From NCBI GenBank assembly GCA_010093605.1, contig MU004185.1, forward strand, positions 2,360,427-2,424,426: a DNA stretch of 64,000 nucleotides, given 5' to 3'. The translations under genes were made by a program, and so were the position numbers. Under the pieces are notes generated by a model that saw only the letters and a list, made by a program, of their open reading frames with translations, was not told where the DNA came from and searched no databases. Shown here piece after piece: positions 2,796-64,000 of the stretch (position 1 is the stretch's first letter; the number at the start of each line of letters is the position of its first letter). This stretch comes from Lophium mytilinum. Taxonomy: Eukaryota; Ascomycota; Dothideomycetes; Mytilinidiales; Mytilinidiaceae.

Positions 2796-4820
2796 TCAGA
2801 TTTTGGGCTGCAATCTTTCCCAGCCGTTATTTCTTCTCATTCGATTTCCTGGACGCCTCAAACGCACTGGTGTCATAGTTGGTCGCTGGACTACTGTAGA
2901 AACTCGATTCTCGTGGCTAGAGTTCCGGAGCATCGCAAAGGTGGTGCCATAGCCGACTACAAGAATCTTGAGAGAACTACCTGTGATCGCAACATCATCT
3001 ACAATACCCTGGAATAACTGCAGGAACATTTCCGCCCACCGCTCGTCATCTCTGTTCGCTTCAAAGAGATCTTGGGCTTCCACGACGACGAAGCACTTTG
3101 AGAGTCTGGTGAAGATTCCACGTAACAATTGTGCCCACTCTGCGTCTGTATGATCCGCCCCGATCTTTACAAAGTTTAGTTCGTGAAGATGGTTCTGCAG
3201 AAGAGTCGGTTGGTTTTGAAGTAATTGAAAGACTAGGCCTTTTAGGACCTCTGCTACTGTAGGAGGTCGGTCGTGGGAGCGCAGAGGTGCAATGTTCCAG
3301 ATTACGTGGATGGACCTTTTCTGTAAAAATTTGACAACATCCGCGGCGAACTCTTTAGCTTTTGCTTCTGCGCGAGGGCCGACTTTGACCAGAAAAAGCG
3401 AAGATCCGTCGGTTGACATCCAATTTCCTAGAGCGGCTAAAAGGCTCGAAAGTTGCGTGGTTCGTGTGTTTCGAGTGTTTGACCGAGTAGCAATAGAGAG
3501 TACTTTGTAGAGTATTTCGTGTGGACAGGTCTTGGGTTTCAGGACGGACAGTATTTGAGAGAATTCGATCTCGTAAATACGAGGCTTCATGTGGGAAACA
3601 TCAACGTGAATGCTCTCGGTGATAGCTTTATTACCTATAGGATTCCAGTCAGCATGACACCCTCGATAATTATGCGCGGTGCGGTGTAAGGTCATAGAGT
3701 GTATACACCGTAATTTTATCATAAACTTACATGTAGCAACTTGCAGCACATTGATGACCGTCTCTTCAACTCTAACCTGCATTTCCTTCAGCTCTAGTTG
3801 CATAGCGTGTAGCTTTTCGTCTCTTTCCCTTGCCTCTTCGTCTCTTCTCCTTGCCTCTGTGTGTAGTATTTGCATAGTGATGTTCATGTCACGAACCTCC
3901 GCTCGGTTTCCGGAGGTGGCCACATCATCAACCGTTCTCGCACATAGTTTGATCTGTTCGACCGTGTCTTGGTATTCGAGTTTGTACGGCTTGAAGATTG
4001 CCGAGCGTATGCGTGCTGCAAGGCCACGCTTGTACCAGTTCACTGCTTTCTGCAGGAACAAGATGATGTGAGCGTATAGGCGGGATATTGCCGCTTGCAT
4101 ATCTTCAGTTTTGAAAAGCTCGGCGCTTAATTTGGTTTGACGTAATGCTTCGCCGATAATGGCAAGGGCCTGAGCGAATTCCTCGACTAATTCAGCGTAG
4201 ACTATGATACCCTGGGGAAGTGTTAGCGTATGGTAAAAAGGGCCTAATATAAGTGTACATATGTAATCACAGCCCCATCAATTTTCGTGTAAAGAGGCGT
4301 GGGACGGAAATACATACAACGTACCTGAAGAACGAACTTGACTGAGCCCCAGGCCAGGCATAGATATTCCGGGTGGTGCTGGGCTAGGACGTCCAAAACA
4401 TTACTGTAGTATAGTATTGTTCCAGAAAATCTCTGAAGCCATTTCATAACCCCAGTCCTCTTCTCCCTTTTCGTGTCGTAACGCTGCTTTATATCCTCCA
4501 TGACATCTACCACATCTTTCATGCAAGTGTTTCCATCCAGTATCTCGCTGGCCTTCCCCGGGAGCTCCGTTTCGACGAATTTCTTTGCCTCATCGTAGGC
4601 TTCCTGGGCTATATCCTTCCTAGAGGTGGCATTCTGTATTAGCGCATGCTTTCGTGAAAGGGCGGAACTGCCCGTGCTCAGATGTAGCGCAGAACAGGTA
4701 CACACAGCCTTCAACAAGGGTTTTTACGTACTTCGGAACGGAACAAGGTCTGTACGAGGATCTTATGAAGCATCTATTCGTGACAGCAGCGATGCCGTCT
4801 TCTGAGGTAGGGACGGGCAT
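2796..4820 (-). CDS. DUF7708-type fungal protein with coiled coil and degenerate NTPase-like C-terminus
   Basis: Four exons are inferred. Exon 1 starts at the ATG of 4820 and a gtacgt...gggcag intron brings it into frame with exon 2. Exon 2 ends at 4325 and exon 3 starts at 4211 (intron 4212-4324). A further GTAAGT intron lies near 3660-3735, with two possible acceptors. Exon 2 carries the DUF7708 signature (VMKWLQRFSGTILYYSNVLD, then a PEY.CLAWGSVKFVL segment). Exon 3 continues it and then forms a charged coiled coil (repeated EARRRDEEARERDEK). The last 250 residues resemble the NTPase-like part of these proteins (SLFLVKVGPRAEAKAKEF, then CFVVVEAQDLFE as a possible Walker B) but no Walker A loop is visible. 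DUF7708 is usually the N-terminal domain of fungal NACHT/STAND-like proteins; a signalling role is inferred only from that. The gene diverges from the AAA+ gene at 5261. Confidence 0.72.
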
Positions 4821-23504: not shown

Positions 23505-24485
23505 TTACGCTGCATCATCACCCTTATTGGAGGTGATTCTGTGAACAGCGGCCTGGAGCTTCTTGTCATTGGCGTCTGTGAAGCCTTTCATAACGCTCTC
23601 AATGTCGATAAGGACGTCGCCTGGCATGTCTGTTCGCTGTTGGATCGCGAAGTCGCCGAACACGCCGAGGAAGTCTTCAAGCCTCCACTTATCGATGGGC
23701 GGGCATTCATACTCGCCGTCTTCGGTAGGGGCAAGCAAAAACCTCAGATATGAAATTGCACTGAAAAACGGATTCCACTCCGGATCCATTTCGAAAGAAC
23801 AATCAAGTCCCATGATTTCATGAATACTCAAATAAGCACGCGAGGCATCTTCAACGGCCAAGCAAACGATACCTGTCTCAGAAGTGGAACCATCAGCAAC
23901 ATAAGACATTCCAAAATCGATAAGGACAAGATCTGGGAGTCCAGAGAAATGCTGCTGAGACGGATTTAGCATGAAGTTACTAGGATGCAGATCGCCATGA
24001 AAGATTCGAAAGCGATTCAAACACGCTACGGCTTCAAAAAGTTGGAGACAGATGTGTGCTATAAACCCCTTAGGGATGTAGCCAAGCTTGCGTACAGATG
24101 TCAATGAGAATTCCGCTACATTTGGGCCAAATATGACGCCCATTGCGTACGAAGGTTTGTTGGTAGGGTCTTGAAGGTCGCTTCCCAGAAGGTTGATGAA
24201 TCGATGTTGCAGATGGCCAAGTTCCAAGGCCTGGACGGCCTTCAAAACCGCCACTTCGTTCTCGATTTCCTCCTTGCTATCAGCATCCTCTTTTTTCAAC
24301 CGCTTGACGATGCACAGTTGTGCCTTGACTTCGGAAAGGCTGAAAATAACTTTCCCATTGCTAATCTCTTCGCAGTATGTTTGAGGTAATGAAAAGTACG
24401 TGCACCCGTAACGACCTTCGCCCGCGCCAACAACGTCTATGTACCTCATCGGGTCTTCTACTTCGGGGATGTTGACACCGGCCAT
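23505..24485 (-). CDS. Protein-kinase-fold protein, single exon
   Basis: An uninterrupted 326-residue frame from the ATG at 24485. Kinase landmarks are visible: a weak glycine-loop region (VVGAGEGRYGCTYF), a putative subdomain II Lys (AQLCIVKRLKK), a catalytic loop HGDLHPSNFML in which the HRD motif is HGD, and a metal-binding DFG in LVLIDFGMSY. The GD-type catalytic loop and the modest similarity to Ser/Thr kinases suggest an atypical or small-molecule-like kinase, common in fungal accessory genomes. It may be active because the catalytic Asp, the Asn and the DFG Asp are kept. The C-terminal half (WNPFFSAISYLRFLLAPTED) is not familiar. No partner is evident nearby. Confidence 0.75.
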   Translation of the reverse strand: MAGVNIPEVEDPMRYIDVVGAGEGRYGCTYFSLPQTYCEEISNGKVIFSLSEVKAQLCIVKRLKKEDADSKEEIENEVAVLKAVQALELGHLQHRFINLLGSDLQDPTNKPSYAMGVIFGPNVAEFSLTSVRKLGYIPKGFIAHICLQLFEAVACLNRFRIFHGDLHPSNFMLNPSQQHFSGLPDLVLIDFGMSYVADGSTSETGIVCLAVEDASRAYLSIHEIMGLDCSFEMDPEWNPFFSAISYLRFLLAPTEDGEYECPPIDKWRLEDFLGVFGDFAIQQRTDMPGDVLIDIESVMKGFTDANDKKLQAAVHRITSNKGDDAA

Positions 24486-25672
24486 CTGACCTGATATCTT
24501 GAAAGTGGATATTGGAGCTTGACCTGATTATGTGCTCTGAAAAGGAGAAAACGTTGTTTCCGATCGATTCGTCGGGATGCGCAGCTGGATTTATGTGCTG
24601 CAGGTGTTATTGTAAGGCAACAACGCAAAATGTGAACTTTTGGGAAAGGTATACAATGCAAGGTGTACAATGTTAGCACATTCGAGCACACTAGAGAGCA
24701 CTGTGCATCTGAGCGCCCGTCATCAATGAACTGCAAAAGGTTTCCCTACTTGAAGACATGAAGTGGACTTTCTTATGGCCGTTAGACTGGATCTCTTCCT
24801 CAAGTGCCGTGGTTCTATGCATACGTTCTTTCTGTCACTGCTCTCAGATGGCAACGGTGAAGAGCCGGACGAAATGGAAGTAGTGGGGTGCGACATAATG
24901 AAAGTATGAGCCGGGTGAGTATCTGTGCTAGCTTGAAGTTAGTAAGGTGTTTATGTTGGCTGCGATTGAATGGTCAGGTATTCGAATGTACGAACTGAGT
25001 ATTGAGGTGAAAATCATACACTGAAGTTGAGAGAGTTACAGGGCTATAGAATGTCAAAATTGAACGCAGTACGCCTTATCCAACGATGTACTTTTACATC
25101 GGATTGGAATATCGAGATTATGGAAGAAGAAGAAGAAGAAGATCTAATGATGCTGGTAACATTTATTAGTCTGCCTCGGGAGATTCGTGGAGCAGATGGG
25201 ACGCAACCACATCCTGGAGCTTTCGCTCGAAAGTTGACAAAACTCTTGCTTTCTAGAACAATGGCAATGTCCTCAACGACTGCAGACTCCTTTTGAGCTC
25301 GGCGCTGGGGGGCTCACAACGATGCTAGAGTTAGCATTTACTCGTCACAATAATGCTAGAGTTAGCATATACCTGGGAATTTTGTTCGAAGCGGTCTTGC
25401 GACGCAGGGCGTTGGAAGTCTCGATGATATTCCGAGGAAAGGGGCGAGCGGATACATTGCTCGGAAAGGCTAGACTGGCATTCACATTCCGGCAGGGATA
25501 TCTCCTCCGACGACAAGCCGAGTTTCTGCGCTTGGCCACGCTCGCGACATCTTCACTCATTGAGTAGTCAGCATATACGAGAGCGAAGCCTTGTGCATAG
25601 TAGAGACCGCGCAATGCCTCACACGAGAATCCGCAACTTTGCCCGTGTTCCTCACCTGCACCGACCTCAACC
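24486..25672. other. Intergenic upstream of the dehydratase gene
   Basis: No convincing gene. It contains a short gaa repeat (25125-25139) and the duplicated palindrome at 25322-25368. The distal part should hold the promoter for the gene starting at 25673. Confidence 0.45.
25322..25368. promoter_or_regulatory. Two identical 16-bp palindromic sites
   Basis: The 16-mer atgctagagttagcat occurs at 25322-25337 and again at 25353-25368. Each copy is a 6-bp inverted repeat (ATGCTA/TAGCAT) around GAGT, and they start 31 bp apart, about three helical turns. They lie 300-350 bp upstream of the dehydratase start. Paired binding sites for a dimeric factor are a reasonable guess. Confidence 0.4.
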
Positions 25673-30073: not shown

Positions 30074-33000
30074 CTAATCCGATAAGACCAACCTGAACGT
30101 CGCCACCTCAAACGCCCTTATCTCAATCTCGACCCCCTTACTCGTCCTCTCTCCATCGACTAGCACCTCCGTCTCTACTAAACTGATCTCCTCACCCTCG
30201 TCCTCGAGCACATTGCACTTCTCCACCCTCTTGACATCCAAAACTCCCCAACTCAGCACACCCCTACTCCTTCCACCCATGGCATCGTACAACCTGACAA
30301 TAACGCTGCGATCTTTGCGCAACGGAATGCCAATGGACGGCATATCCTTGTCGTCCTCGCCGCGCTTTACGGTGTCGAGGACCAAGTTGTCGGCCCCGGA
30401 AATACGGAGGGAGGAGAGCAGGGGCGCAACGCTAGCTGGAGAGGTATGTGTAGCGAGGTGGAGTGGCGAGTTGAAGGCGCGAGCAGTGCGAATCGTCAGA
30501 GGCGAGAGGGGGCCGGTGTGCGGGAGAATGGCATAACGAATGTGATGGCGGCCTTGCATATATCATTAGCAACATGTTCTGTGCAAAGGGGAACATATAC
30601 TTACCCATATCAGCATGCGCATCCGGCGCCTTGGGCGCCCTCAACAAACTCAACCTCATCAAATCTCCACATGTCGCAAACCCATACTTCGACTCGTTCA
30701 GAATACTCACGCCGTACCCGGCCTCGCTCAGATCCGCCCACTTGTGGCAGCACACCTCGAACTTCGCCATATCCCAAGTTGTGTTGTAGTGGGTCGGGCG
30801 GCGCACGATGCCGAATTGGGTTTCGTAGGAGGCTTCTTGGTTCACGATGTCCACTGGGAACTCAACCTTGAGGAATTTCATTGTCTCGCGCCATTCCACT
30901 TCGCTGCTCATCTCCACGTAGCTGGGGTTGTCGCCGATGGCCGCGGCGAGTGAAATGGTGGTTTTGATCCAGCTGTGTTCGCTGATTTTCGTCTCGACCT
31001 CGACGGAAACGCGGTGCGGACCGGACTCTGTGATAGCGGTTTTGGCGGCGTGGAGCTCTTTCCGTGAATCGAGGTGGTAGACTTCGACATCCCATGCTTG
31101 CCAGTAGAGTGGCTTGTCGTCGAAGATGACTAGCTGGTTGGCCTTCTTGCCCTTGGGAATGATTTCACGCTTAGCAGCGAGGTCGTAGAGGGAAGTGATA
31201 ACGCCATCAGAGACTTCGACTTTGAATTGGCTGTTGGAGAGCTCGTAGACGCCTTGGGCGGTTTCTTTAATGGACGCTGAATATGCGGGATAGGCGGACA
31301 GCATTGGGCGGACATCCAGCAAACCATCGCCATTGACTAGATAGTAGGGTTCAATTGATCTGGCAGGTTTGAGTAGCTCTGTACGGGACCAAGGAAGAGT
31401 GTTGAGCCCAACTAGTCTGCCTATCGAGGACTCGCTCGGATGGCCGAAGCCGAGCGCTTTCATAGCACCCTTCAAGAGTTTTTCGCCCGTCTTGAAGACC
31501 TTTGCGTATAGCTAGGACAGCGTTAGTAGGTTGTAGATGCGAGATTACACGATACATACCTCATCCGAGTCGTCGTAGCACATCTCGATGGAACTACCAG
31601 GCAGACAGTCGTGGAATTGGCAGAGCAAGACATTTTCCCACATCTCGTCGATGTCCGACTTGGGATACTCATACTCGGAGTCTTTGATGCTTGCAAGAGT
31701 ACCTAGGTACTCGAGGTCATGCAGCAGAATCTCCGAGTACCGGTTGTTTCGCTTGTTGTTTGCCTGGGTAGTGTATGTTCCACGATGAAGCTCGAAATAG
31801 AGCTCGCCGTACCAGGTGACCAGATCAGTGCCATCTGCAATCTTCTTTTCTAACTTATCGAAGAAGTCCTCCACAGAGCCGCCAAGCTTGATGCGGGGCA
31901 GAAGGCCGACCTTGTCGCTGATACCTCTGCACCGTCGAAGCTTCTCAATGTGCTGGTAGGTCGGGCCTCCTCCACCGTCACCCTTGCCGAAGACAAGAAG
32001 CGACGTGTGGTCTTGGTCTAGCGACTTGTGCTGCGTGACACTGCGCTTGACGTCGCCAAAGTTAGCTTCTGCAGTGTAGGTCTCGGATGGAGCCATATGG
32101 CAGATGACCTGGCTACCATCGAGAGCAACCCAGTTGAAGGTCGTGTGAGGGAAGTTGTTGATGTTGTTCCAGCTCAGCTTCTGGGTAAAGAACCTGCTCA
32201 TACCAGCCAGTCGGCAGATCTGTGGCAGCTGAGTGGAGTATCCAAAGGTGTCCGGAAGCCAGAAAGTCTTGCACCGCTGACCGAAACGACTCTCAAAGAA
32301 GCGTTGTCCGGCAACGAACTGGCGAACGAGGGATTCTCCGCTCGGCATGTTGGTGTCGTGTTCTACCCAGCTGCCTCCAATAGGTTGGAATGTGCCTTCT
32401 TTGACCTTTTGCTTCACGCGATCAAAGACTCCCGGGTACAGCGTCTCCAGCCATTTGTACTGCTGCGCCTGCGAAGCGCAGAACCTCAGCTCCGGGTATC
32501 GATCGATGAGGTCGCATTGGTTCGACCATGAGCGTGCGACTTTGCGCTTCGTCTCTGCCCAAGGCCACAGCCAGCACGTATCAATGTGGCAATGCCCAAT
32601 TCCACTAACAATGGCTTCTTGGTCGCCGTCGTAGACCTTCTCAGAGTCGACCTTGTCACCCAAGAATTTCCGGGCGATCTTGCGGCACTCTTTGATGGCG
32701 TCGTTGCTTCCTTTGCCAGCAATGAAAGTGTCCATGATGGCGTTTCCAATCACACCAGCTTCGTGGGACTCCCACGAGTCGCCTGGAAACTCTCGAGACG
32801 CATCTGTTCGAATTAGCATTGAAGTGGCCCTAGAGTTCCTAGAAGCTTACCTCCGATCTCCCAGAAATCAAAGTAAAGTCCTCTAGCTTCAAGGTTGATA
32901 GCCACTATGTCTGCTGTATGCAGTTGGAAGTACGTATTTGGATCTGGGGGTTGGATCGAGTCTCCGCCCGGTGCATTGCCAAACATCTTGTTGCATGCCA

Positions 33001-47107: not shown

Positions 47108-48783
47108 TCAGATTGAAATACCATTGATTCTGGCCAGGATCTGCTCTATGAACCTTATGCCGACGAGAATTCCATCTTTGTCCTCCTGGTTTGCATCCCC
47201 AAACATTTCATTCCTCGGATCCAGACACTCTAGACACGATGTTACAACCTCAGTATACACGTCCCCGCAGCGTGACGGAAGCTTCCTCTTCGCCATGCCC
47301 ACGAGCTGCTCCTTGGTCCGAAGACGAGTACTTAGATGGGCAGCCTCGAAATCTGCATCGCAGATCTGGATCTCCGAGGAAGCCGGCGTAACAGGTGCAG
47401 CGGTCGGATTCAATCCCGGATAGTGCACGAATGACTGCCATAGGCCTATCTCCAGCAAGCAAACACCAAGACTGTAAATGTCGTGCTGCATTACATAGCG
47501 ATTCATTACATTCGTTCCTTGGCGTTCCGGATGGCGATATAAGTTTCGATACCAGGCCGGGTCTCCGAGAGGTTGGTCTGCTGGTTTGAACGCCGGAATT
47601 GGTTGAAGCCAACTAGGAAACTCATGCCGAGCAATGAATCTCTGCTCGGAAATACGAGGATGTTCTCTGGTCTGATATTCTTGTGCACGAAGCCGGAGGT
47701 GTGGACGAAGCTGACCGAGCGAATTAACTGCTTAGCGATTCGCATAAGAGAATTGAGACTAGCACCAAAACTTCGGTCCAGAAGCAGTCCGCGAAGGCTA
47801 GCTGGGACAGCGCTATTTTGAGGAGTCCCATACAGAAGCTCAACTCCGTTGACAGCCTTGGTCGCGGATTCTCGATGTCTGACCAGACCCCTGCAGCTGA
47901 GCAGGCCGAATGTAGATGGATCGATTTGCTGAAGTATACCCGCCAGCGATTCCACGTCAGCTTTAATCTTGGTAAAGTCCAGTGGTCCATGACTCCCATC
48001 CGGGGATGTCACCGCTTCCGAAACATAAAGCCTGGTTTGGCCACCGTTCTCTCGAATGATTGCTCTCGCTGTGGAAAACATGATTGGAATATCTTTCGAG
48101 TTCTCCAGCGTTGCCCATTCAAGGTAGAGGCGGGCGCGGTAGTCTGGATGTGTAGCTGAACGAAGCTTCCACATGTTCGTAAGTGGATTTAGTTGGTTCT
48201 TCAAGAAGTCCATTTGCATGTTTGGCTCATTTGCTAATTCTCTGTTTGCTTGTCGAAGTTCGAGGTCCATGATTTTATTGCTGTTGAGTATCATCAAATA
48301 CCAGGTCGGATCAAAGCGGCTTTGCCATGCCTCCAGCTCAATGACTAGTTCTCTCAGACTGTTTTTTATCGCCCACTTCCATTTTTTGAGGAAATCCGTA
48401 ATCCTTTGCTTAGGCGAACGGTCATTCATGTCATTAACGGAGTTCTCCAGCGCAAGCTGAGTGATGGCTTGACGTAGTTTGCCTTCCAGTATATGTAACA
48501 AGTTCAGTTGACTTCTTGCCAGCTCCTTTTCGAGTGACTCGGAGATTTTCGAAAGAAAACGCATCTGAGACTCGATTCTGATCCAGATAGCATCCACCAA
48601 CACCGTTTTCTCTTCGATTTCTCTGTCATGTGCTCTAAATCTTTGGCAGATCTCTTTGACTTCGTGAGCTGATCTGCCATTAGGCAACTTAAGTAAGCTA
48701 TGAACGTCCTTTACCAGCACTATTCTCACTCACCTGATGCATACGTCGACCGCGCCAACGACCGCGAGTGCCAGTTCGGCCAT
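47108..48783 (-). pseudogene. HeLo-like/pseudokinase protein, frameshifted
   Basis: Exon 1 (48783-48734) reads MAELALAVVGAVDVCIS. After a 36-nt intron the N-terminal helical region continues (EIEEKTVLVDAIWIRIESQ), as in HeLo-like domains of fungal prion- and NLR-associated proteins. The C-terminal half is a kinase fold with altered catalytic motifs: VHKNIRPENILVF in place of HRD..N, and LVGFNQFR in place of DFG. This alteration is common in the family. The frame breaks near 47550. Upstream it reads TNLSETRP, and the expected RNLYRHPERQG is in another frame, which then continues NRYVMQHDIYSLGVCLLEIG to the stop at 47108. No intron explains the shift, so one small indel is likely. The broken form would lose the last third of the kinase lobe. 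A role in incompatibility or cell-death signalling is inferred from the family only. Confidence 0.72.
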
Positions 48784-49427
48784 GGCTGACTGAGTATATC
48801 AATCGAACACACGATTTGGGGATGAATCACCACGCTGGATGCACTCCCATTTTCAATGGAACGGACAGCGGTGAGGCAGACTCGTTCATCTTCATCTTTG
48901 CGACTCAAGCCCATTGCGAGGCTATGTTTTGGCGCCGACCCCCACGCCCAGCCAGCCACTTTGTGGCTATGCACAACTCCAAGCGCCGGGCGCATTCGTT
49001 GCGGCCTCAAAACGCGACCCCCTGTTATCCTGAACCAACCGCGTATCTACTATATACTGACACGGACGCCCGGCTGAGCACTTGTCTGATCGTCTCGTCT
49101 GGTCGGAAATCTACCCTACCATTGGACCCGTTGCACCGATCACCAATGACAATGGTCTCGGTGCGTCTCCTTTGACAGTGGCATCAATCCCATCGTTTTC
49201 ATGCTCTTTTGAGTAACGAGCTCTTTTTCTGTTTTATTGCGGTCAATCTGCTTTGAAGCCCTCTTTCGCATCTTCCGTTATCATCTCTGCGTAAGTAATC
49301 GGGATTTCCTATGCGTAAGGGGAAACAGCCACTAAAGACGGAGCGGTATTTACATCCTCAAAGAAGTTCAAACAGGATCTGATTCTCTTCCAGCTAATTC
49401 GATAAATACTACCTGAGTTGGAACACG
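48784..49427. promoter_or_regulatory. Bidirectional promoter region
   Basis: 644 bp between the divergent starts of the HeLo-like pseudokinase gene and the kinase-YTH gene. No defined motif was recognised. Confidence 0.4.
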
Positions 49428-51728
49428 ATGGAACAGGTTCTAGAGCTTGTCTCGGCTTTGAAGTTGGACACGGAATTCTTGCCCGAAGGTGTGAAGCACA
49501 AGAGACATATACCGAAGCCGAGATCAAGCCAGTCTTCCAAAGCAGCCAAGAAACGCAAAAGACCCAACAGAAATCTGTTTCAAATTGGGCAAGAGTCGCC
49601 TATGCAGATCGAAGAAGAATCACTTGTCCATATCGAAGAGCGGTCGCCGACGAAAATCGACGCAGAGTCATCTCTTCCGATTGAGCAGGCCGTGATGACC
49701 GAGTTTGAAGAGACTTGGGACATTGAGCCAAGTTCAATCATTGGCCAGGGTGCTTTTGGAATCGTGCGGTTTGAGCGACGTCGACCACAGATGGTTAATC
49801 ATACACAGACTGCTCACAATCAGGTTCGAGCAGTAAAAGAGATTAGGAAACTGGGCACTCCAGATTACATAAAAGAGCTCCAAGCTGTTGCACAGTTCTC
49901 GCAGGCTCAAGTATTTCAAATCGGTTCTCTCCACGATGAAAATACTGGCTGCTAATTTCTCCATCAGTACGAGCTGTATTTTGTTCAAAGCTATGGATGG
50001 TTTGAGAATCAGGAGTCTGTGTTCATTACGATGGAATACTTGCGCCTTGGAGATTTGTCGCGCTTCAGAGACCGTAATGGCCCATTCCCCGAACAGTCGG
50101 CTGGGCTTATCGTGCGACAAGTCCTTGAAGGGATACGATTCATGCATGAGATCAATTTTGCTCATAGAGATTTGAAGCCGGGTGTGGGTGATACAATCTT
50201 GATGTTCATGTCAACCCAGGCACTCACAGGAACGTAGAACATCTTAGTAGCATCCACATCGCCATGGGCTGTCAAAATAGCAGATTTCGGCATTAGTAAG
50301 CAGTGCAACGAAGGAACGCAGTTGCAAACACAACTTGGTACTCCCGAATACATGGCACCCGAGCAAAAAGGTCATTTCAGAAGCAGTCAAGGTGTCACTA
50401 CGTACTCGCTCTCCGTCGATATCTGGGCCATTGGTGTGATAGCCATGGAATTGATCCTAGCTCATCCATTCCTTTACCCCTCTGATCAGGAAGATTATAC
50501 CCGAGGTATCAAGCCGCTCGAATTTAATCACCCTTCGCAAATAGGTATTTCCGAGTCATGTCAAGATTTCGTCAAGAGCTTGTTAACTCCAAATCCTATA
50601 CACCGACCATCAGCGGAGGCTGCAATTTCCCATTCATGGTTCGCTCAAGTAGCGCTCTGGCTGAATGAAGATGATTCGTAAGTGCTCAAGAGTTACCCAA
50701 TGATCGCGTCGGATTCCAACCAATTCACAGACTCTTCGTTCAAGATGAAGCTATCCCATCTCAACGCCGCGATGCTGCTACAGCTTCCCCAATGCCATTG
50801 CTCAGCTGGTCTACCTTCGGAAATCTACGGCTTACGAATAGATCGCCAAAAAGGACTCGCAACACGAGAAGTTCTAGTAATTCAAAAAGCAGTCGCAGCA
50901 CAATAGGCTCTCGCAGCACCCAAAGAACTCAAAACCCATCAAGGACGTCGGAGACAGAGGTTACTATTCTGGATACTTATCAGGGACGATCTTTTGATGT
51001 CAGGCTTCTGGCTTCATCATTTCGACATCTCTCCCTGGATACCGTAAGTCTCTTTGCTCCAAACTCACGAACATTGTAGTGGTATGACATTAATTCTGCG
51101 CGCAGACAAAATATTTCGTCTTGCGATCCGATAACGAGGCGGATATGGAACTGTGCTTTGCCCAAGGCAGGTGGACAGCGCTACCAAAGGCAAACAAAAT
51201 GCTCGATAACGGCTATCGGAGATCAGGTGGAAATGTGCTTATTTTCTTTTCGGTGGTCGAAAGGTACGTCCTTACTATCTTACATTCGCAGATACCACCG
51301 CTAATATGGAAGACAAAAGTCGTAAATTCTACGGTATTGCTAAAATGACAAGTCCCGTGGACTGGAACACCACCGATCCCGACTGGGTACCCAGACCCGA
51401 TGGCCAAGTTTACCATGGGTGAGTATCAAGGAATATTTTTCACTCGGGCCAGTTCTCTAACCTTGCGGTGACCAGGCGATTTACCGTTGATTGGGTTTGT
51501 TTGAATGAGCTATCCTTCGACAGAATCAAAGGCGTCCCAGCTTATCTTGGGAAGGGCCGCCTCGCTGTAGCCGTTATGGATGGGCAGGCGATTTGCCCTG
51601 AATCGGGATACGAAATATTGAGGGCATACTCAGAAGAAGACCGAAGATCGCCGTGTAGCTTGGAGAGACGACAGATAAACGATGTCAATATGGAGGTTAC
51701 GCTTGCGAGTTCCACTGTGCCGTACTAG
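49428..51728 (+). CDS. Ser/Thr protein kinase fused to a YTH (m6A-RNA reader) domain
   Basis: Exons 49428-49910, 49968-50183, 50238-50677, 50731-51043, 51106-51263, 51320-51418 and 51476-51728 total 1962 nt, exactly 654 codons. Residues 1-95 are polar with a basic NLS-like KKRKRPNRN (41-49) and repeated ES..IEE units. The kinase spans about 100-375: glycine loop IGQGAFGIVRF, VRAVKEIRK with the subdomain II Lys, HRDLKPGNIL (about 227), ADFGISK, GTPEYMAPEQ, and DIWAIGVIAMELILAHPF. It looks catalytically complete and CAMK/Chk2-like. A Ser/Arg-rich linker follows (TRNTRSSSNSKSSRSTIGSR). A YTH domain starts at about 486: TKYFVLRSDN, a cage Trp in FAQGRWTALP, GGNVLIFFSVVESRKFYGIA, MTSPVDWNTTDPDWVPRP with a second cage Trp, and GRFTVDWVCLNELSF. 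YTH domains bind N6-methyladenosine in RNA. The exon 5/6 acceptor (caaaag) is non-pyrimidine-rich but restores the conserved core. Confidence 0.85.
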
Positions 51729-52904: not shown

Positions 52905-53710
52905 TGTACGTGCCGCCGACGGCGATGTAACATACGGTTTTCATCAAGGAACGGGGCTACTGATACCCTATTCTCATTTTCCCCGCTTTTAGAAAGAGTT
53001 GCCGTGGAGGCCCGTGGATTCGGTCTGTAGTCATTGACGACCCCTTTTATTGATTTTGTGCATTGCAAATCGGTGTTCAGGCTTGGGTTCACGGCTCTTT
53101 AGAAGAGCTTCCCGCGGCCCTTCTCCTAGCAACTGCGGCCAACCGTGAATGCTCACCAGGGCGTGTATTTACCGTTGAACAACGCTCCTTCCTGCGTCAT
53201 CAGGTACTCGAACACATCAAGCTTTGGTCGTTTGAAGGTCAGCTCTGAGGCGAAGTCGTGGGTGCGGAAACGCATTCTATGACAACTAGTGCCACTGTCA
53301 TTGTTTTAGTGTAGTTCAGAAATACTGATTCCCTGCTCATTCTATCTTAAAGTCTGGCACACTTCTGCTTGGGCTCCACCACTCATCATTCCGCTTGTCT
53401 GGCCCAAGCAACTTCCCTTCCCTCCTGACGAACCAAGTCCAGTACTTGGAGGCATGCTACAAATCGCGTCCAAAGCAATGCCAGCTAGTAATAACAAGGC
53501 TACTGGATGGAGCTTCCACTCGGAATTTCGTGGGACACGAGCGACATCGCTAAAGAACGTTCTCACCTGCATCTGCCACAGACATTTATTCCTTCTTATG
53601 TGGTGTAGGTTTCTTAAACAAGTCCATCTTAACGCCTGTACGCTGTGCAGCGGGGAAAGCACTAGCGATAGCGTAAGTAAGCTGCGGCCCATTTTATTTC
53701 GCTTTTAATG
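52905..53710. other. Intergenic up to the repeat boundary
   Basis: No gene was recognised. Composition changes abruptly to AT-rich at about 53710. Confidence 0.5.
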
Positions 53711-53735
53711 TACTAGGAGGGCTCGGGTTAAGTAT

Positions 53736-55470
53736 TTATAGGGGCTAGAGGGTTAGAGTTATATAGAGAGAAGCTAGTTTAATATAGAGAAAATTAATCT
53801 TTAAGAATTATATATAGTATAACCTTATACTACTATATTTAACTACTATAATATAAAATAGAGTATATATATAAAGAATAATACTTAAAATATAATATAA
53901 TAGTATTCTATTAACTTTAATTTAATTTATAAGCTATAGTAGTAGCTTAAGATAGATATAAAGAGGCTATAGAGTATATAAATATAAAATAGAAATTACT
54001 TAAAGAGTTTAGTATAAGAATAGCCTTATACTTAAAAATTAGTATAACTACTACTATATATAACTACTATAATAAGTATAGAAGAAATATATAAAAAATT
54101 ATATATAATATATAATATAATAGTAATCTATTAACTTAGAATTAATTTATAGACTATAGTAGTAGTAGTAGTTATATATAGAGGTAAAATTCTAAATAAT
54201 AAAAGTTACTTAAAGAGTTTAGTATAATACTAGCCTTATACTTAATAAAGACCTTAACTAGCGCTATATAGAACTACTATAATATAAAGTTAAAAATATT
54301 TATAAGAAAAATTACTTATTATATAATATAATAGTATTATAGTAATTTAGAAATATTTTATAGGCTATAGTTATAGCTCTAGATAGATATAAAGAATAAA
54401 AAAAGAGGGCGGCTAGTAGCATAGAGTATAGCTCTATAATTAAGTAGCCTTCTACTACTATATATAATAACTTCTAGATATTAAAATACTATAATAGAGC
54501 TATAATACTATATATAGTATATATAATTAAATTTAAAGTATTATAGAAAAGGTAAAGTTCTAGTAGTAGATACCTATAGAGGGTAATAGATATAATAGAA
54601 AGAGTTTTATATTATAATAGTCTTACCTTAGTATAGGTTACTACTAGATAGTATTCTTATATATTAGAAATTTTAGCTATATTAAATAAAATATATAAAG
54701 TAAAGAGTAGAATATAGTTTATATAATATTTATAGATAAAGTAATTAATAGAGCTACTATAGAAAGCCTTTCTACTAGAGCTCTTTTCTAGTAACCTTAA
54801 CTAAGTAGCTATATCTATAAGAGGTATTAAAATAGATTAGATAGAGTAAGCTCTATAATAAAAATATTAATAAATTCTTATTTTTTACTAATTATACTCT
54901 CTAACTACTTTCTACTTCTTAGCTTTATATTTTAAACTATTATCCCTCTTCTTACTATATCTAGTAGTTAGTATAGAACGCCTCTAAAAGTACTAGAATA
55001 AAGAAGAGTAAAAAGTAGCTAAATTATACTTAATAGTAGATTTAAACTAATATAAGAGAAATAAAAAGAAAAAGGCTATAGACTAAATAGCTATAGTAGA
55101 AGAGGCTAGTAAGCCTACTTTTACTTCTATTCTAGAGCTATTTCTAATTATCTTTAAAAACTCTAGAAGTCTTTCTAGTATAAATATTAGGGCCCCTTAT
55201 TCTACCCGCCCTGCGCCTATACTCTCTTAATAACTAATAATATCTTAAAAGCCTTTAGAGAAAACTATTATATAACTTATAATTAGTATATCTTTTATAA
55301 TCTTTTAGTATTTATAGTTAGATTCTAATAAATTTAAGTAGAACCTATCTTAATAGAAGAATTATTACCTTCTACCTCTACTTAATCTATATAATATACT
55401 CCTCTATAGTAGTCTACTTATAGTAGTATTTATTCTACTATTTCTTCTCTATCTATTTAATCTATATAAC
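53736..55470 (+). repeat. Direct repeat, left copy (1.73 kb)
   Basis: Begins ttataggggctagaggg and is colinear with 59164-60899 throughout. It is almost fully converted to A/T: where the right copy has acgtgcagcacaacc this copy has atatatagtataacc. The right copy starts 5.43 kb downstream. It may be the left LTR of one element or a separate insertion of the same element. Confidence 0.8.
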
Positions 55471-58400
55471 TATTATAGTATAAACCTAAAATAATAATAA
55501 TTATATACTAAGGTTATATACCGCCCCTTATATAACCTAAGTAAAACGCTAGCCTAAGGCGCTAGACTATAGCCTATATACTAGCCTTAAACTATAACCT
55601 CTTAAGAGCTTCTAGCTCTCTCTCTTCTTTTTAGCTTAGATTTTTATAATAGTTAATATATCTTATTACTTATATTATATTAGCCCTCTATATAATCTAA
55701 GCTTACTTTTCTATACTTAAAATCTTATTAATTTTTTCTAGAACTCTATTATAAGATCTAGGTATTTTTACTAAAACTAATTAAATATTTTTCTACTAGC
55801 CTAGCTATATAGCTATATATAGTATCTAAGTTTAACCTAGTAGACTATAATCTAGTACTACCCCCCTTAAATAAGCTAGTTAATTTAATAGCTAGGCTTT
55901 AAAATAATTTAAAAACTCTAGGCGCTATAAGTACTAATCTAAATACTTTAGAAGAACTATCTATTATCTATACTTCTATAACTCTAATAACTACTAGTAA
56001 TAAAAAGGCCCGCTATACTACGCGCCTTATATACTTTTAGGGCGCAGCTAAAAGCTCTTCTATTCTAGCTATTATTTCTAGCTTCTACTATAGAACTAGA
56101 GAACTAATTCTAAATATTTAAAAATAGACCTAAGCCTTCTTATAGACCTTAGATAATACTTAGCGTACTAATATCTAGCGCGCTAATATCTAGCGCGCTA
56201 ATACCTAGCGCCCTAAATACTTAGTAGATAATCTAGTTAATACTACTAAACTCTTAAACTAGAACTAGAACTAGACTATTACTAATAAACTTAATCTAGA
56301 TTATAACTCTAATAATAAAGGCGGCTTTATTACGCCTAGTATAAACGCCCTAGATAAGCGCGCTATTTAGTTTATAACTAAGGATAATATAAATAAATAA
56401 ACTAGAAGTAAGCTATACTTTACTTATTACTATATCTCTATAGTAGACTAATAAGTATCTATTCTAGTTATATACTATAAAACTAAATAGGTTTTAGATA
56501 CTAAACCTAAGTATATAGATATTTCTAAAAAGCTATAAAAAAGTAACCTCTAGCGCTATATTTAGCTACTAGTTTAGCTTCTTAACTATTATACTAATAG
56601 TACTATAACTATTAATATTATAGTTATAAATAAGACTAAGTTTACTACTATAGTAAATAAGAATAACTTTATATAGTAGAAATCCTTCTAGAAGCTCTAT
56701 ATAGAATATAAAGTTAGCTTTAAAAAAGCTAATAATAAAGATAAGCTCTATAATAAACTCTAGAATAAGTATTAAAAGTATAAGTAGAATATAACTAATA
56801 GTACTACTATAGTAGAATAAAAGTTAAAGGCCTATTATACTAAATAGTTATAGTATACTACTAGTACTTACTAGGCTAATTTTAAGCTTAACTAAATATA
56901 CTTATACTATAACTACTAGTATAGAAAGTATTAGACCCTTAAGAGAATGTATAAATAGCTTACTACTTATATTAAGAAACTTAAATAATAGCTTTATTAA
57001 TAGGGGGCTTTATACCTATAGCCTCTAGACTCTAACTATAATTCTAATAATAATAGTACTTATTCTTTTATACCTATAGTTCTACTTTATTAATACTCTA
57101 TTAGCTAGCCTCTATAGTTTAACTCTATTAAGAGTAAGTCCGCTACTCTATTTACGCCTATTTAGGACTCTAGTGCATATATAGTAATATATTACTACTC
57201 TAATCTAGATAAGTTTAGTAGTAGTAATAAAAATAAGCTATTCTACTAGTAGTAGTATATATAAGTACTTAGTAAGCTAGATATCTATATACTACTATAT
57301 ACTACTATATATTATTATATAGTATATATCTATAATAGACTTAAAGAAAAAGCCTTTAATATAATCTTCTATTAGGCTAAATCTAATAGTAATAAGCTAT
57401 ACCTCTCTATAGAAAAACTAATTAATAACCTAGATAAGATCTATAGACCTTTTAATAAGGCGGCTAATATATATACTAATTTATATAATAGTAAGTTTAT
57501 ATAGAAAAAAGATAAGCGCGTTATAATCTAGATAGAATACTTTAATACTAGTATAGCCTCCCTCTACCTTAAAGACTCTAGAAAGATCTACTATATATAA
57601 TATAATCTTACTAATAGCCTTAAGTATAAGGCCGCTAATAGATAAGATAGTAATATAATAACCTTTATTATATTCCTCTAAACCTTAAAATTCTAGCTTA
57701 ATATTATTAAACTAAATAAGAATATCTATAAAAATAAGAATACTTCTAAGTCTATGCATAATAACTATAAAGCTACTAGCGCTAGATTAACCTCTACTAT
57801 ACCTTACTACCCGCTACTTACTAATATAATGCGTATATCTAAAAATAATACTAGTAATACTACTTTAAGTACTTCTATAAATAACTTTCTAGGCCTCTTT
57901 AGTTATAATTACCGCACTATTATACGCCTTAAGTAGCTAGGTTACTATTAGAACTATCTAGAGTATAAATATATAGCTAATAGTAACGCCCTATATATTA
58001 GCTAATAGCTAGTCCCTATCTATAAGGTTAGTAGTCTTACTAATAAGATTAGTCTTACTAGCGTTAATATTAGCGCTATAAATACTAGCTCTATCTATAA
58101 TAAGATAATAGAAAATACCTAGTTTTTAGTAATAGTTACTACTAAGAACCTCTAATAGCCTTTAATAATAGAAAATTAAGAGTAGTTATAGATAGAATTA
58201 CTATTTTAAAATAGAAGATTAAACTAGCTATTATATATATATCTACCCTTATACTATAGCTAGTTAATAGTAAATAGTTTAGCTTCTTAGATAGAATTCT
58301 CTAATTTAATTCTATTTTTAACTTTTTTACTACTAAGATTCTTTCTAATATAGAATTAGGCTTTTAGTTTCTTTATTTAAAGACTGTGCGTCTTTATAAA

Positions 58401-58754
58401 ATATCTATCTAACCCCTTTTATAACCTATTATTCTTAAGCTTACTAATAGTAAGCTCTTAGTTATACTAGACTATACTATAGATATTACCTTTTATATTA
58501 GTAACTACTATAATACTATTACCTACTATATTATAGATACTAGATAATATAATATAATTCTAGATATACTCTAGCTCTAGCTTTATAACCCTATAGTTAG
58601 CTTTAAAAGGACCTAGCTAGTCTTTTAATTTAACTACTATATATCTAACTATCTTTATTATAGTAGGCTAGTTATTATAAAAAGCCTTATCTATTTAAAA
58701 TATATTAAAATTAAACTATACTAGAACCTAGGTAATTTCTATAGCTCTTAATAT

Positions 58755-58818
58755 AACTCTAACTCTAACTCTAACTTTAACTCTAACTCTAACTCTAACT
58801 CTAATTCTAATTTTAACC
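58755..58818 (+). repeat. Hexamer array (aactct)n
   Basis: About ten tandem copies of a 6-bp unit (ctctaa, with ctttaa, ttctaa and ttttaa variants). It lies inside the RIP block, between the retropepsin-like remnant and the right direct repeat. In one frame it encodes Asn-Ser repeats. Confidence 0.75.
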
Positions 58819-59163
58819 TTAGTCTAGTTATAGAAGGCCCTAATAATATAAAGAACTCTTTTTAGCTTAATTATAATAGTAAGCCTCTTCTACCTAAACT
58901 AGTTTTACTAAATAAGCCCCTAGTATATAATATTTAATTTATCTCTATATACGCCTACTCTATTATAGCTAAATATAATAAAAATATAGTAATAATAGTT
59001 ACTTTATAAGATTTTAAATAGTTATATTAACCTTTAGAGACTAATAAGTAATATATCTATAAATAATAGATTATAAATCTAGTAGATATTACTACTAAGA
59101 ACTACTAATAATTTAAAGAGAAAATAATAAAATTACCTTATATAAAGAACTAGCTTTAATAAA

Positions 59164-60899
59164 TTATAGGGGCTAGAGGGTTAAAGTTAGGTAGAGAGAA
59201 GCGAGTTTAATATAGAGAAAATTAATCTTTAAGAATTACGTGCAGCACAACCTTGCACCGCCGCATTTAACTACTATAATATGAAATAGAGTATATATAT
59301 AAAGAATAATACTTAGAATGCAATGCAATAGCGTTCTATTAACTTTAATTTAATTTACAAGCTATAGTAGTAGCTTAAGGTAGATATAGAGAGGCCGCAG
59401 AGTGTATAGGCACAGGATAGAAATTACTTAAAGGGTTTAGCGTAAGAATAGCCTTGCGCTTAAGAATTAGTGTAACTACTACTGCATGTAACTACTATAA
59501 TGTAGTATAGAAGAAATATATAAAGGATTATATATAATACATAATATAATAGCAATCTATTAACTTAGAATTAATATATAGGCTATAGTAGTAGTAGTAG
59601 TTATATATAGAGGTAAGATTCTAAATAATAGAAGTTACTTAAAGAGTTTAGTGTAATGCTAGCCTTATACTTAATAAAAACCTTAACTAGCGCTGCATGG
59701 AACTACTATAATATAAGGTTAAAGATATTTATAAGGAAAATTACTTATTATACAATGTAATAGTATTCTAGTAATTTAGAAATATTTTATAGGCTATAGT
59801 TATAGCTCTAGGTAGGTATAGAGGGTAAGAAAAGAGGGCGGCTAGTAGTATAGAGTATAGCCCTATAATTAAGTAGCCTTCTACTACTGCATATAATAAC
59901 TTCTAGATATTAAGATACTATAATAGAGCTATAATACTATATATAGTATATATAATTAAATTTAAAGCATTATAGAAAAGGTAAAGTCCTAGTAGTAGAT
60001 GCCTATAGAGGGTAATAGATATAATAGAAAGGGTTTTACATTATAATAGCCTTGCCTTAGTATAGGTTACTACTAGATAGTATTCTTATATAATAGAAAT
60101 TTTAGCCGCATTAAATAAAATATATAAAGTAAAGGGTAGAATATAGTTTATATAATATTTATAGATAAAGTAATTAATAGGGCTACTACAGGAAGCCTTC
60201 CTGCTAGGGCCCTTTCCTAGTAACCTTAACCGAGTAGCAGTATCTATAAGGGGTATTAAAACGGGTTAGGCGGGGTAAGCCCTATAATAAGAATATTAAT
60301 AAATTCTTATTTTTAACTAATTATACTCCCTAACCGCTTTCTACTTCTTAGCTCTATATTCTAAACTATTATCCCCCTTACTACTATACCTAGTGGTTAG
60401 CATAGGACGCCCCTAAAAGTACTAGAATAAAGAAGAGCAAAAAGTAGCTAAATTACGTTTAATAGTGGATTTAAACTAACGCAAGAGAGATAAAAAGAAG
60501 AGGGCTATAGACTAAATAGCTATAGTAGGAGAGGCTAGCAAGCCTACTTCTACTTCTATTCTAGATCCATTTCTAATTATCTTTAAAAACCCTAGAGGTC
60601 TTTCTAGTATAAATATTAGGGCCCCTTATCCTACCCGCCCTACGCCTACGCCCTTTTAATAACTAATTACACTTTAGAAGCCTTTAGAGAAAACTATTAT
60701 ATAACTTATAATTAGTATATCTTTTACAATCTTCTAGTATTTATAGTTAGGTTCTAATAAACTTAAGTAGAACCTGTCTTAATAGAAGAATTATTACCTT
60801 CTACCTCTACTTAATCTATATAATATACTTCTCTGCAGCGGTCTACTTATAGTAGTACCCGTTCTACTATTTCTTCTCTATCTATCTAACCTACGTAAC
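59164..60899 (+). repeat. Direct repeat, right copy (1.74 kb)
   Basis: Colinear with 53736-55470 and the same length within a few bases, but it retains many CpG and CpA sites, so it is less mutated. After about 60900 similarity to the left copy ends. Confidence 0.8.
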
Positions 60900-63800
60900 C
60901 TACATAATATACTCCTCTATAGCGGTCTATCTATAGTAGTATCTATTCTACTACTCCTCCTCTATCTACTAAACCTACCTAATATTCTACTCTAGGGCGG
61001 GCTACTTATAGTAGTACTTATTCTCTTACTTTTCTAACCTCTTAACCTACTTAACTAATATAACTTTCTTATACCTAGTAGTTTACTAGCAGTAGTATAT
61101 ACTCTAGTAAGTTAAGAGCGGCTTAATATATACCTAAAATTTAAAGCAATATAGAATTAATAGAAGCTGTAGAGTAAGATTAGAGTAATAGTAGTAAGTA
61201 TACTATTATATAGACTATTAAGGGAGCAGCAGTTAAAGAAGAAGAAGAAGCGGCTAAAGAAAGTAAAGTAAATAAAGAAGTAGCCTAAGCAGATAAAGAA
61301 GTAGAAGAGGCAGTATTAGAGTTACTATTACCTACATCTTCTGCGTTATCTCCTTATATACCTGCATTACTACCGCCTCTAGATACTAGAGAGGTGTTAC
61401 CCTCTCTATTACTACCTTCTAGCGTAGGGACACCTTAGTAAGCCGTAAATAATAATAATAGAGCTCTAGGCTAGGTTCTACCCGCTATATGCTATCTCTA
61501 TAAAGCGTTTCTTAAACCTATAGCTATACTATATATATATATAGGCGTATATACTATCCTTACCCTCTAGAATACTCTATAGATAGCTATAATACTATGC
61601 ATAAGTTTACGCGCTTAATAAACTATAGCGGCTTCTACTCCTGCATAACTAGAACTAATAATATAACGCTAAATACTAGCCCTTATTACTATATTACTAC
61701 TCTATATACTTGCGTAAATAACTAATAAAGAGATTATAGCGGAATTATTCTTAGCGTAATAAAATAAGGCTGTAGAAGTGCTCTCTAGAATAGACACTAT
61801 AGAATAAATAGATAAGAAGGAAATGCTAGCTAATATAAGTTGGTTTATATAACTAGCGTATAATAATAGTTAGGTTTAGATAGAGTAGTACGCTGCCTTA
61901 TTATCTCTCCGCCTAACGCTAGTAACTAAGGTTGTAGAAGAGGAATTTACCTAACTTAAGAATAAGGTAGAAGCAGGTGTAGATATAGATAAGGTATTAG
62001 ATAATAGAGTTAAAGAGGGTAGAGAAGATATATATATATAAGAACAGTAAGATACTATAGATAAATTACCGGGTTTACTTAATAAAGTTACGCTAGAGAA
62101 TTAAGGTAGTAGGGTAGATAATACAGCCTTAAATAGTAAAGGCAATAGCAAGAGTATAGATAAAGTTATAGATAAGATAGACCCTAATAGGTAAGTATTA
62201 TAAGCCCTATAGCTTATATAAAGCTAATATATATAGGCATAATAATCTATTAGTAAATACTCTATATATAGTAAGTATAATCTAATTAGCGTTAGAAGTC
62301 TAGTATACTTACTATATATCTTAACTCTTTCTATTTAGATAATATAGTAGCTAATATTATAATATAGCAAGTAACTATATAATAGTTTCTTAGAGCAGAT
62401 CCCTTAGCTAAGTTACTAGCTTTCTCCTAGCTTAGAACCTTCCCTTCTAATAAGAGCCTATTATAGCTAATACAGCCTTCTATCTAATAAGCTAACTAGA
62501 GCTATTATAGAGAGAGGATAATTCTAATAACTTTAATAATATCCTATAGAAATTAATATTAAGCGGAGAAACTAGTAATATAGAAACTCTAAGGCTTAGT
62601 TTTATAAGGTCTAAAGCTAGCTTTATAGTAAATAAAGAGATTAAAATCCAGCGAGTGTATAATATTAATAGCGTTATTATTAGTATCTCTACTTTAGCAG
62701 CCTATAATTTATACTTCTTACTATCTCTATAACTATCCTTTCTCTAAAGTATTACTTAAAACTAACGCATTATAATATGCGGCTATAAGCTCTATATAAT
62801 AAAGTAGCTTTATATAGGGTATAGGTATAAGTATTAATTTAAAACTTATATATTTTTCCCCTAGATACTAACACTAAATAAGTAGAAGGGCGATACTTTA
62901 TATCTACTAGATATAATGCAAGCAGCTTAGCTTAATAATATTATCTTACCTGCAGTAAAGTATACTCTAACACCCAATAAGTAGTAGTATATACTATACA
63001 GTTTTAATATTATATAGGGTAAAGTAAGCATTAAGAAAGAAAAATATATAATATTATCTAGAGACTCTTATATTAATACTAAGTATATAATTCTATAGTA
63101 TTAACTCTAAGAATTCTAGGACTAAGTTCTTTACAACGCAGAAAACTTTATAGAAATAGATACTATACCTAAAGATTTATTTAAAGGAGTATTTCTAGTA
63201 GTCTTAGGTTATAATCTAAAAATGGCATATAAGTCCTTAAGTATAATTTAAAGCAGGGATTAGCTACTATGTACTTTAACTACTACTTTTAATAAAAACC
63301 TAATTAATATGCTAGATAAGGGGATATAGGTTAACTATAGATATAAAGATGTCCTAACTACTAATTAGCTAGATACCGGGGTTACCCTTCTACGTAAAAC
63401 TAGCTGCAATAACTACTAGGCCACTTACTTCTATAATAGCGGAAAAGAAAAGATTTATATAATATTATACCCCTACTATCTTATCTAGGGCGTGTTATCT
63501 CTAACGGTAGAGCTCTAAGTAGGCAACTGTAGCCGTATTAGTAGTATAGCATATAATAAAATCTATAATAGTAATAAGATTATACTTAAGTTACCTATTA
63601 AGAATATTACGCCCTTTTATAATACTTAACTAGAAGCTCTTACGTTTTTAACTAAAATAATTAAGTAGTAGTTTAAAGCGGCAGGTAGCTCTAGAGGATT
63701 ATTAAAAAGAAAATAGCTTTAGAATAGTCTTGCTACTATTCTCTAACGCTACTATACTATACTCTAGAGAGATAGACACTTATCCTATAGAGTTTAAACT

Positions 63801-64000
63801 AAGTTCTAAGTACTTCTTACTATACTTAAGTAACTTAAAGAAAGCGCAAGTCCTAAATTTACTATAAAGAATAGGCTAGATAATAGTAGTAAGCCTTATT
63901 ACCCCTACTAGGTTCTTTCTATAGAAGAAGTTAATGCCTTTACTATTATAAACCTTAATTACTAGGTATTTCTTTTCTAGGTACTATCTCTTTAGGTTAC

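Follow-up and report, generated by a model that had tools for sequence, protein, structure and literature searches.

A likely single-chain protein kinase–YTH gene in the filamentous fungus Lophium mytilinum

A 64,000-nucleotide stretch of Lophium mytilinum DNA, referred to here as the window, contains on its plus strand sequence for a protein kinase followed closely by sequence for a YTH domain, the domain of the m6A readers. This locus raises the question of whether the two are made as one protein and, if they are, what a YTH domain might do for a kinase to which it is joined.

Kinase and YTH sequences in one spliced frame

In silico splicing of 49428–51728 (plus strand) joins seven exons with a combined length of 1962 nt into one open frame of 654 codons. 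The initial annotation had given the same coordinates, exon count and frame, all of which are correct, with the qualification that its codon count includes the stop, so the predicted protein has 653 residues. Exon 1 (49428–49910) encodes the N terminus, with a KKRK cluster at residue 41, and the kinase glycine loop, K137 and E150; exon 2 (49968–50183) continues the kinase to HRDLKPG, and exon 3 (50238–50677) holds the remainder, including DFG, T264 and APE. A Ser/Arg/Thr-rich linker is encoded by exon 4 (50731–51043), in which the first ATG of the frame lies at 50792. The YTH domain is spread over exon 5 (51106–51263; D493, D497 and W507), exon 6 (51320–51418; W559 and Y568) and exon 7 (51476–51728), the last of which ends the domain, with M604 at the position of a shared Arg, and adds a C-terminal tail and the stop. 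The six introns measure, in order, 57, 54, 53, 62, 56 and 57 nt (range 53–62 nt). Introns 1 (49911–49967) and 2 (50184–50237) lie within the kinase domain, introns 5 (51264–51319, with an AAG acceptor) and 6 (51419–51475) within the YTH domain, and intron 4 (51044–51105) immediately 5' of the YTH core; intron 3 (50678–50730, GTAAGT...CAG) is the junction that decides between one gene and two. The start ATG has A at −3. Upstream of it, a GTAAGT at 49291 and a CCAG ending at 49393 possibly mark an intron of the 5' untranslated region (49291–49393).

Pfam searches with the spliced protein place Pkinase (PF00069) at residues 102–368 (E 8e-51, 173.4 bits against a gathering score of 31.7, profile positions 4–263 of 263) and YTH (PF04146) at residues 485–620 (E 4e-27, 95 bits against a gathering score of 22.1, profile positions 1–133 of 135). 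These matches support the earlier reading of both domains in one open frame, with YTH within one residue of the 486–620 first assigned to it. Seven unspliced stop-to-stop frames were also scanned separately. Pkinase exceeded its gathering score in two of the seven (55.4 and 93.6 bits), with E values of 7.9e-15 on the unspliced frame of exon 2 and 1.7e-26 on that of exon 3, and YTH was found in three, at 39.4 bits in one, above its gathering score, and at 20.2 and 20.1 bits in the others, narrowly under it; the frame of exon 5 gave E 6.4e-10. The N-terminal frame (49398–49952) and the linker frame (50675–51076) had no Pfam match at E 0.01. Because the unspliced frames match both families, a kinase and a YTH domain are present whatever the splicing, and splicing affects only whether they share one chain.

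Protein kinases share a catalytic set consisting of a Lys, a Glu, the HRD Asp, an Asn, the DFG Asp and the APE Glu, and every member is present here (K137, E150, D229, N234, D249 and E275), the surrounding motifs being GQGAFG from residue 106, HRDLKPGN from 227, DFG at D249 and APE at 273–275. These residues and the full-length Pkinase profile bear out the description of the kinase as complete and active-looking. Among the best 60 of 2625 matches to solved kinases, RAD53 (113.7 bits) and STK17B (113.1 bits) rank first, with STK17A and CaMK-type kinases next, and T264 occupies what we take to be the position of the PKA activation-loop Thr197. Judged from its sequence, the kinase looks active and of Ser/Thr type. 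Of the 104 residues in the linker between the domains (381–484), 20 are Ser, 14 are Arg and 13 are Thr, in agreement with the Ser/Arg richness noted earlier.

The YTH domain and its cage residues

Among solved structures, the nuclear m6A reader YTHDC1 comes closest to the YTH domain (56.9–58.4 bits, 30% identity over the aligned stretch), followed by CPSF30 (51.9 bits), YTHDF1 (47.6 bits) and the MRB1 chain 4rcm (41.7 bits); the ZrMRB1 chain 4u8t (29.9 bits) and Mmi1 of Schizosaccharomyces pombe (15.8 bits, E 0.089) are weaker. Alignment with YTHDC1, YTHDF3 and Mmi1 places W507, W559 and Y568 at the cage positions. Two cage tryptophans are described as strictly conserved and the third position as Leu, Tyr or Trp, and Ala in place of any cage residue disrupts binding (PMC6356822). 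The three residues here agree with this rule. The third is Leu in YTHDC1 and Tyr here, and the cage of the yeast m6A reader ZrMRB1 is W200/W254/Y260 (PMC6112310); as both are Trp-Trp-Tyr, the combination in this protein is that of ZrMRB1, although the overall similarity to ZrMRB1 is lower.

By our own placement in the alignment, YTHDC1 residues N363, N367 and S378 (numbered as in PMC6356822) correspond to D493, D497 and T508. At the first of these positions YTHDC1 has Asn and Mmi1 has Asp; at the second YTHDF3 has Asp and Mmi1 has Ala. YTHDC proteins carry an Asp-to-Asn change that increases affinity for m6A 15-fold (PMC10617740), and we take the position concerned to be that of D497. M604 replaces an Arg common to YTHDC1, YTHDF3 and Mmi1, and the simple net charge of the aligned 141-residue YTH stretch is 0, compared with +7 in YTHDC1, +7 in YTHDF3 and +1 in Mmi1. 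D493, M604 and this neutral charge would weaken the case for strong m6A-RNA binding. It seems somewhat more probable that the domain binds m6A, with modest affinity, than that it does not, and the function first suggested for the protein, in which m6A recognition would be the key step, appears plausible.

The same positions bear on another reading of the fused gene, in which the YTH domain would be Mmi1-like and recognise RNA by an unmethylated motif, or not bind RNA at all, with any tethering of the kinase independent of m6A. Mmi1 keeps the YTH fold without binding m6A RNA, and acidic residues near its cage may prevent that binding (PMC6112310). In favour of this reading are D493 and the near-neutral charge of the stretch, both Mmi1-like, and the loss of the shared Arg at 604. 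Against it, the third cage residue (Tyr in this protein, His in Mmi1) and D497 (Asp also in YTHDF3, Ala in Mmi1) differ from Mmi1, and the score against Mmi1 stands at 15.8 bits compared with 56.9 bits for YTHDC1. We regard a Mmi1-like domain as somewhat unlikely, and continue with a YTH domain that would bind RNAs probably bearing m6A.

One gene or two at intron 3

Whether this YTH domain is attached to the kinase turns on intron 3. The kinase frame meets a TAA at 50679–50681, inside the GTAAGT donor of the intron, and this stop, 12 residues past the Pfam kinase domain, could end the kinase naturally and so argues against one gene. With donors sought in 50600–50689, three GT-AG introns of 40–120 nt hold the frame open into exon 4, and among these only 50678–50730 combines a consensus donor with a YAG acceptor; the other two, 50639–50682 (GTTCGC/AAG) and 50649–50692 (GTAGCG/GAG), were set aside for their poor splice sites. 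At 53 nt, intron 3 is similar in length to the introns that interrupt the two domains. When 50666–50790 was randomised, a consensus intron joining the frames arose by chance 29 times in 5000 mononucleotide shuffles and 20 times in 5000 first-order Markov resamples. A wider shuffle of 50660–51300 produced a joining intron in 0 of 200 cases, but since it also wrecks the downstream coding frame the narrower test is preferred. As a control, the ends of stop-to-stop frames of at least 100 codons were searched for an extending consensus intron, which was found at 1 of 66 frame ends on the plus strand, that of the kinase frame, and at 3 of 70 on the minus strand (four donor–acceptor pairs). By its coordinates, one of the three minus-strand ends belongs to an alpha-mannosidase frame (31548–32846).

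Two further observations count against one gene. Branch sites follow a CTAAC-like consensus, and inspection of intron 3 by eye revealed no clear example. Scored by codon usage, the 104 codons of the linker frame come out at −17.5 bits and gain no support; the test is weak, for it gives YTH exon 7 a negative score too (−4.9) and rates the first 20 codons of exon 4 at +3.0 in this frame and at +2.3 and +2.5 in the two others. On the side of one gene, in-frame skipping of exon 4 is impossible, as exon 3 stops two bases into a codon and exon 5 opens with a complete one.

If there were two adjacent genes, a kinase ending at 50681 would be followed by a small YTH protein. No ATG occurs in the YTH frame from its upstream stop to the YTH core, and a separate YTH gene would therefore need a start within exon 4, at ATG 50792. 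This codon is in the exon-4 frame, as such a gene requires, but has C at −3, and the layout leaves 110 nt between the kinase stop and the ATG, into which the kinase gene's 3' end and the YTH gene's promoter would both have to fit. The position of the TAA shortly past the kinase domain suits this arrangement; the consensus intron that spans the gap, of a kind that randomised sequence yields only at the frequencies given above, does not. We consider two genes quite unlikely, and a single gene encoding kinase and YTH domain as a single protein likely, with good confidence. That one locus gives two products, a kinase that terminates at TAA 50679–50681 without the YTH domain when intron 3 is retained and a kinase–YTH protein when it is spliced, so that splicing would set RNA tethering, appears very improbable, the in-frame stop within the intron 3 donor being compatible with such a switch but also of a sort that retained introns often meet anyway.

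A possible RNA-tethered kinase and its relatives

For the single-chain protein we propose, at about even confidence, a 653-residue RNA-tethered Ser/Thr kinase, the YTH domain of which tethers it to RNAs, probably m6A-bearing, with clustering and trans-phosphorylation. Its predicted layout is a basic N terminus, the Ser/Thr kinase, a flexible Ser/Arg-rich linker and the C-terminal YTH domain. The last of these would most likely hold the kinase at particular RNAs, probably nuclear and probably carrying m6A, and the KKRK cluster, as a putative nuclear signal, suggests the nucleus. Several sites per RNA, or the linker, could gather copies of the kinase, which might then phosphorylate each other's activation loop at T264; nearby RNA-processing proteins, or the linker itself, are further candidate substrates.

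An RNA-binding module and a Ser/Thr kinase occur in one protein in PKR and other RNA-regulated kinases, PKR itself having double-stranded RNA-binding domains and an eIF2alpha-type kinase domain. The likeness is that RNA could bring kinases together; the difference is that RAD53 and STK17B lead the best 60 of 2625 solved matches of the present kinase. A more specific version of the proposal, in which binding of m6A RNA by the YTH domain clusters the kinase and switches it on, so that the mark is converted directly into phosphorylation, would follow PKR-like logic with methylation read instead of double-strandedness. We think this version unlikely.

To our knowledge, neither YTHDC1 nor ZrMRB1/Pho92 nor Mmi1 has a kinase domain. 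YTHDC2 does join a YTH domain to an enzyme in one chain, a DEAH-box RNA helicase where the present protein has a kinase (PMC6356822), and the general statement in the initial annotation that YTH proteins are readers without catalytic domains is thus too strong. Its further remark that it knew of no described system of this kind agrees with our search of open-licence papers, which found no report of such a protein. Texts in which both Pkinase and YTH occurred were unrelated, dealing with rice ALKBH kinase domains or using YTH as an author's initials. It may well be that the architecture is already catalogued without having drawn comment.

In the tree that Kim et al. (2023) constructed for 868 YTH proteins of 695 fungal species, one clade is exclusive to Pezizomycotina and sister to the PHO92 clade, and PHO92 and YTH1 are both present in 98 of 498 Pezizomycotina species (PMC10826363). 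The kinase–YTH protein might belong to this Pezizomycotina-only clade. Proteins of 300–1000 residues were kept for that tree and those whose names were considered irrelevant were discarded, so kinase-named proteins may be missing from it (PMC10826363); the word kinase is absent from the main text. Fungal m6A readers are described as rarely reported in PMC11361730, which names Cryphonectria CpYTHDF1 and Magnaporthe YTH1 and YTH2 and, in the part cited here, does not contain the word kinase. Among viral contigs, a single-sequence YTH query gave no pattern match, and a four-sequence YTH alignment gave nine, of which tblastn confirmed none.

The surroundings of the gene were also surveyed. Its divergent neighbour (47509–48783, minus strand) has a peptide starting near 48783 that reads MAELALAVVGAVDVCIR and presumably resembles a fungal HeLo-type N terminus, the start codons of the two genes lying about 645 bp apart. 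In a 407-residue frame beside this peptide, a kinase-like stretch matches Pkinase weakly (21.6 bits, under the cut-off of 31.7), and our guess is that peptide and frame are one gene. A second kinase-like frame is found at 23508–24527 (minus strand; Pkinase 39.4 bits over residues 57–216), and at 2799–4723 (minus strand) two frames match DUF7708, one of them with an NPHP3_N match just below the cut-off; these are perhaps one NLR-like gene. The window also holds a fungal AAA+ lid domain and a Blastomyces yeast-phase-specific (Bys1) domain, and Rfam and tRNA scans of it gave no match. An AT-rich block at its end (53700–64000) has a GC content of 0.268, TpA/ApT of 1.79 and (CpA+TpG)/(ApC+GpT) of 0.15, a dinucleotide pattern that we take to resemble repeat-induced point mutation. 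Together with the short introns, the AAA+ lid and Bys1 domains and this block give the window the look of filamentous ascomycete DNA.

The kinase and YTH domain make an unusual combination, a new pairing of two well-known modules that is likely contained in one protein. The general view of YTH readers is that they recruit other factors to marked RNA; if the proposal is true, a kinase in the same chain would connect an RNA mark directly to signalling, and the gene would offer a single-gene system for testing whether an RNA modification localises or switches an enzyme. Such a protein would also bear on the role of the extra YTH proteins in filamentous ascomycetes.
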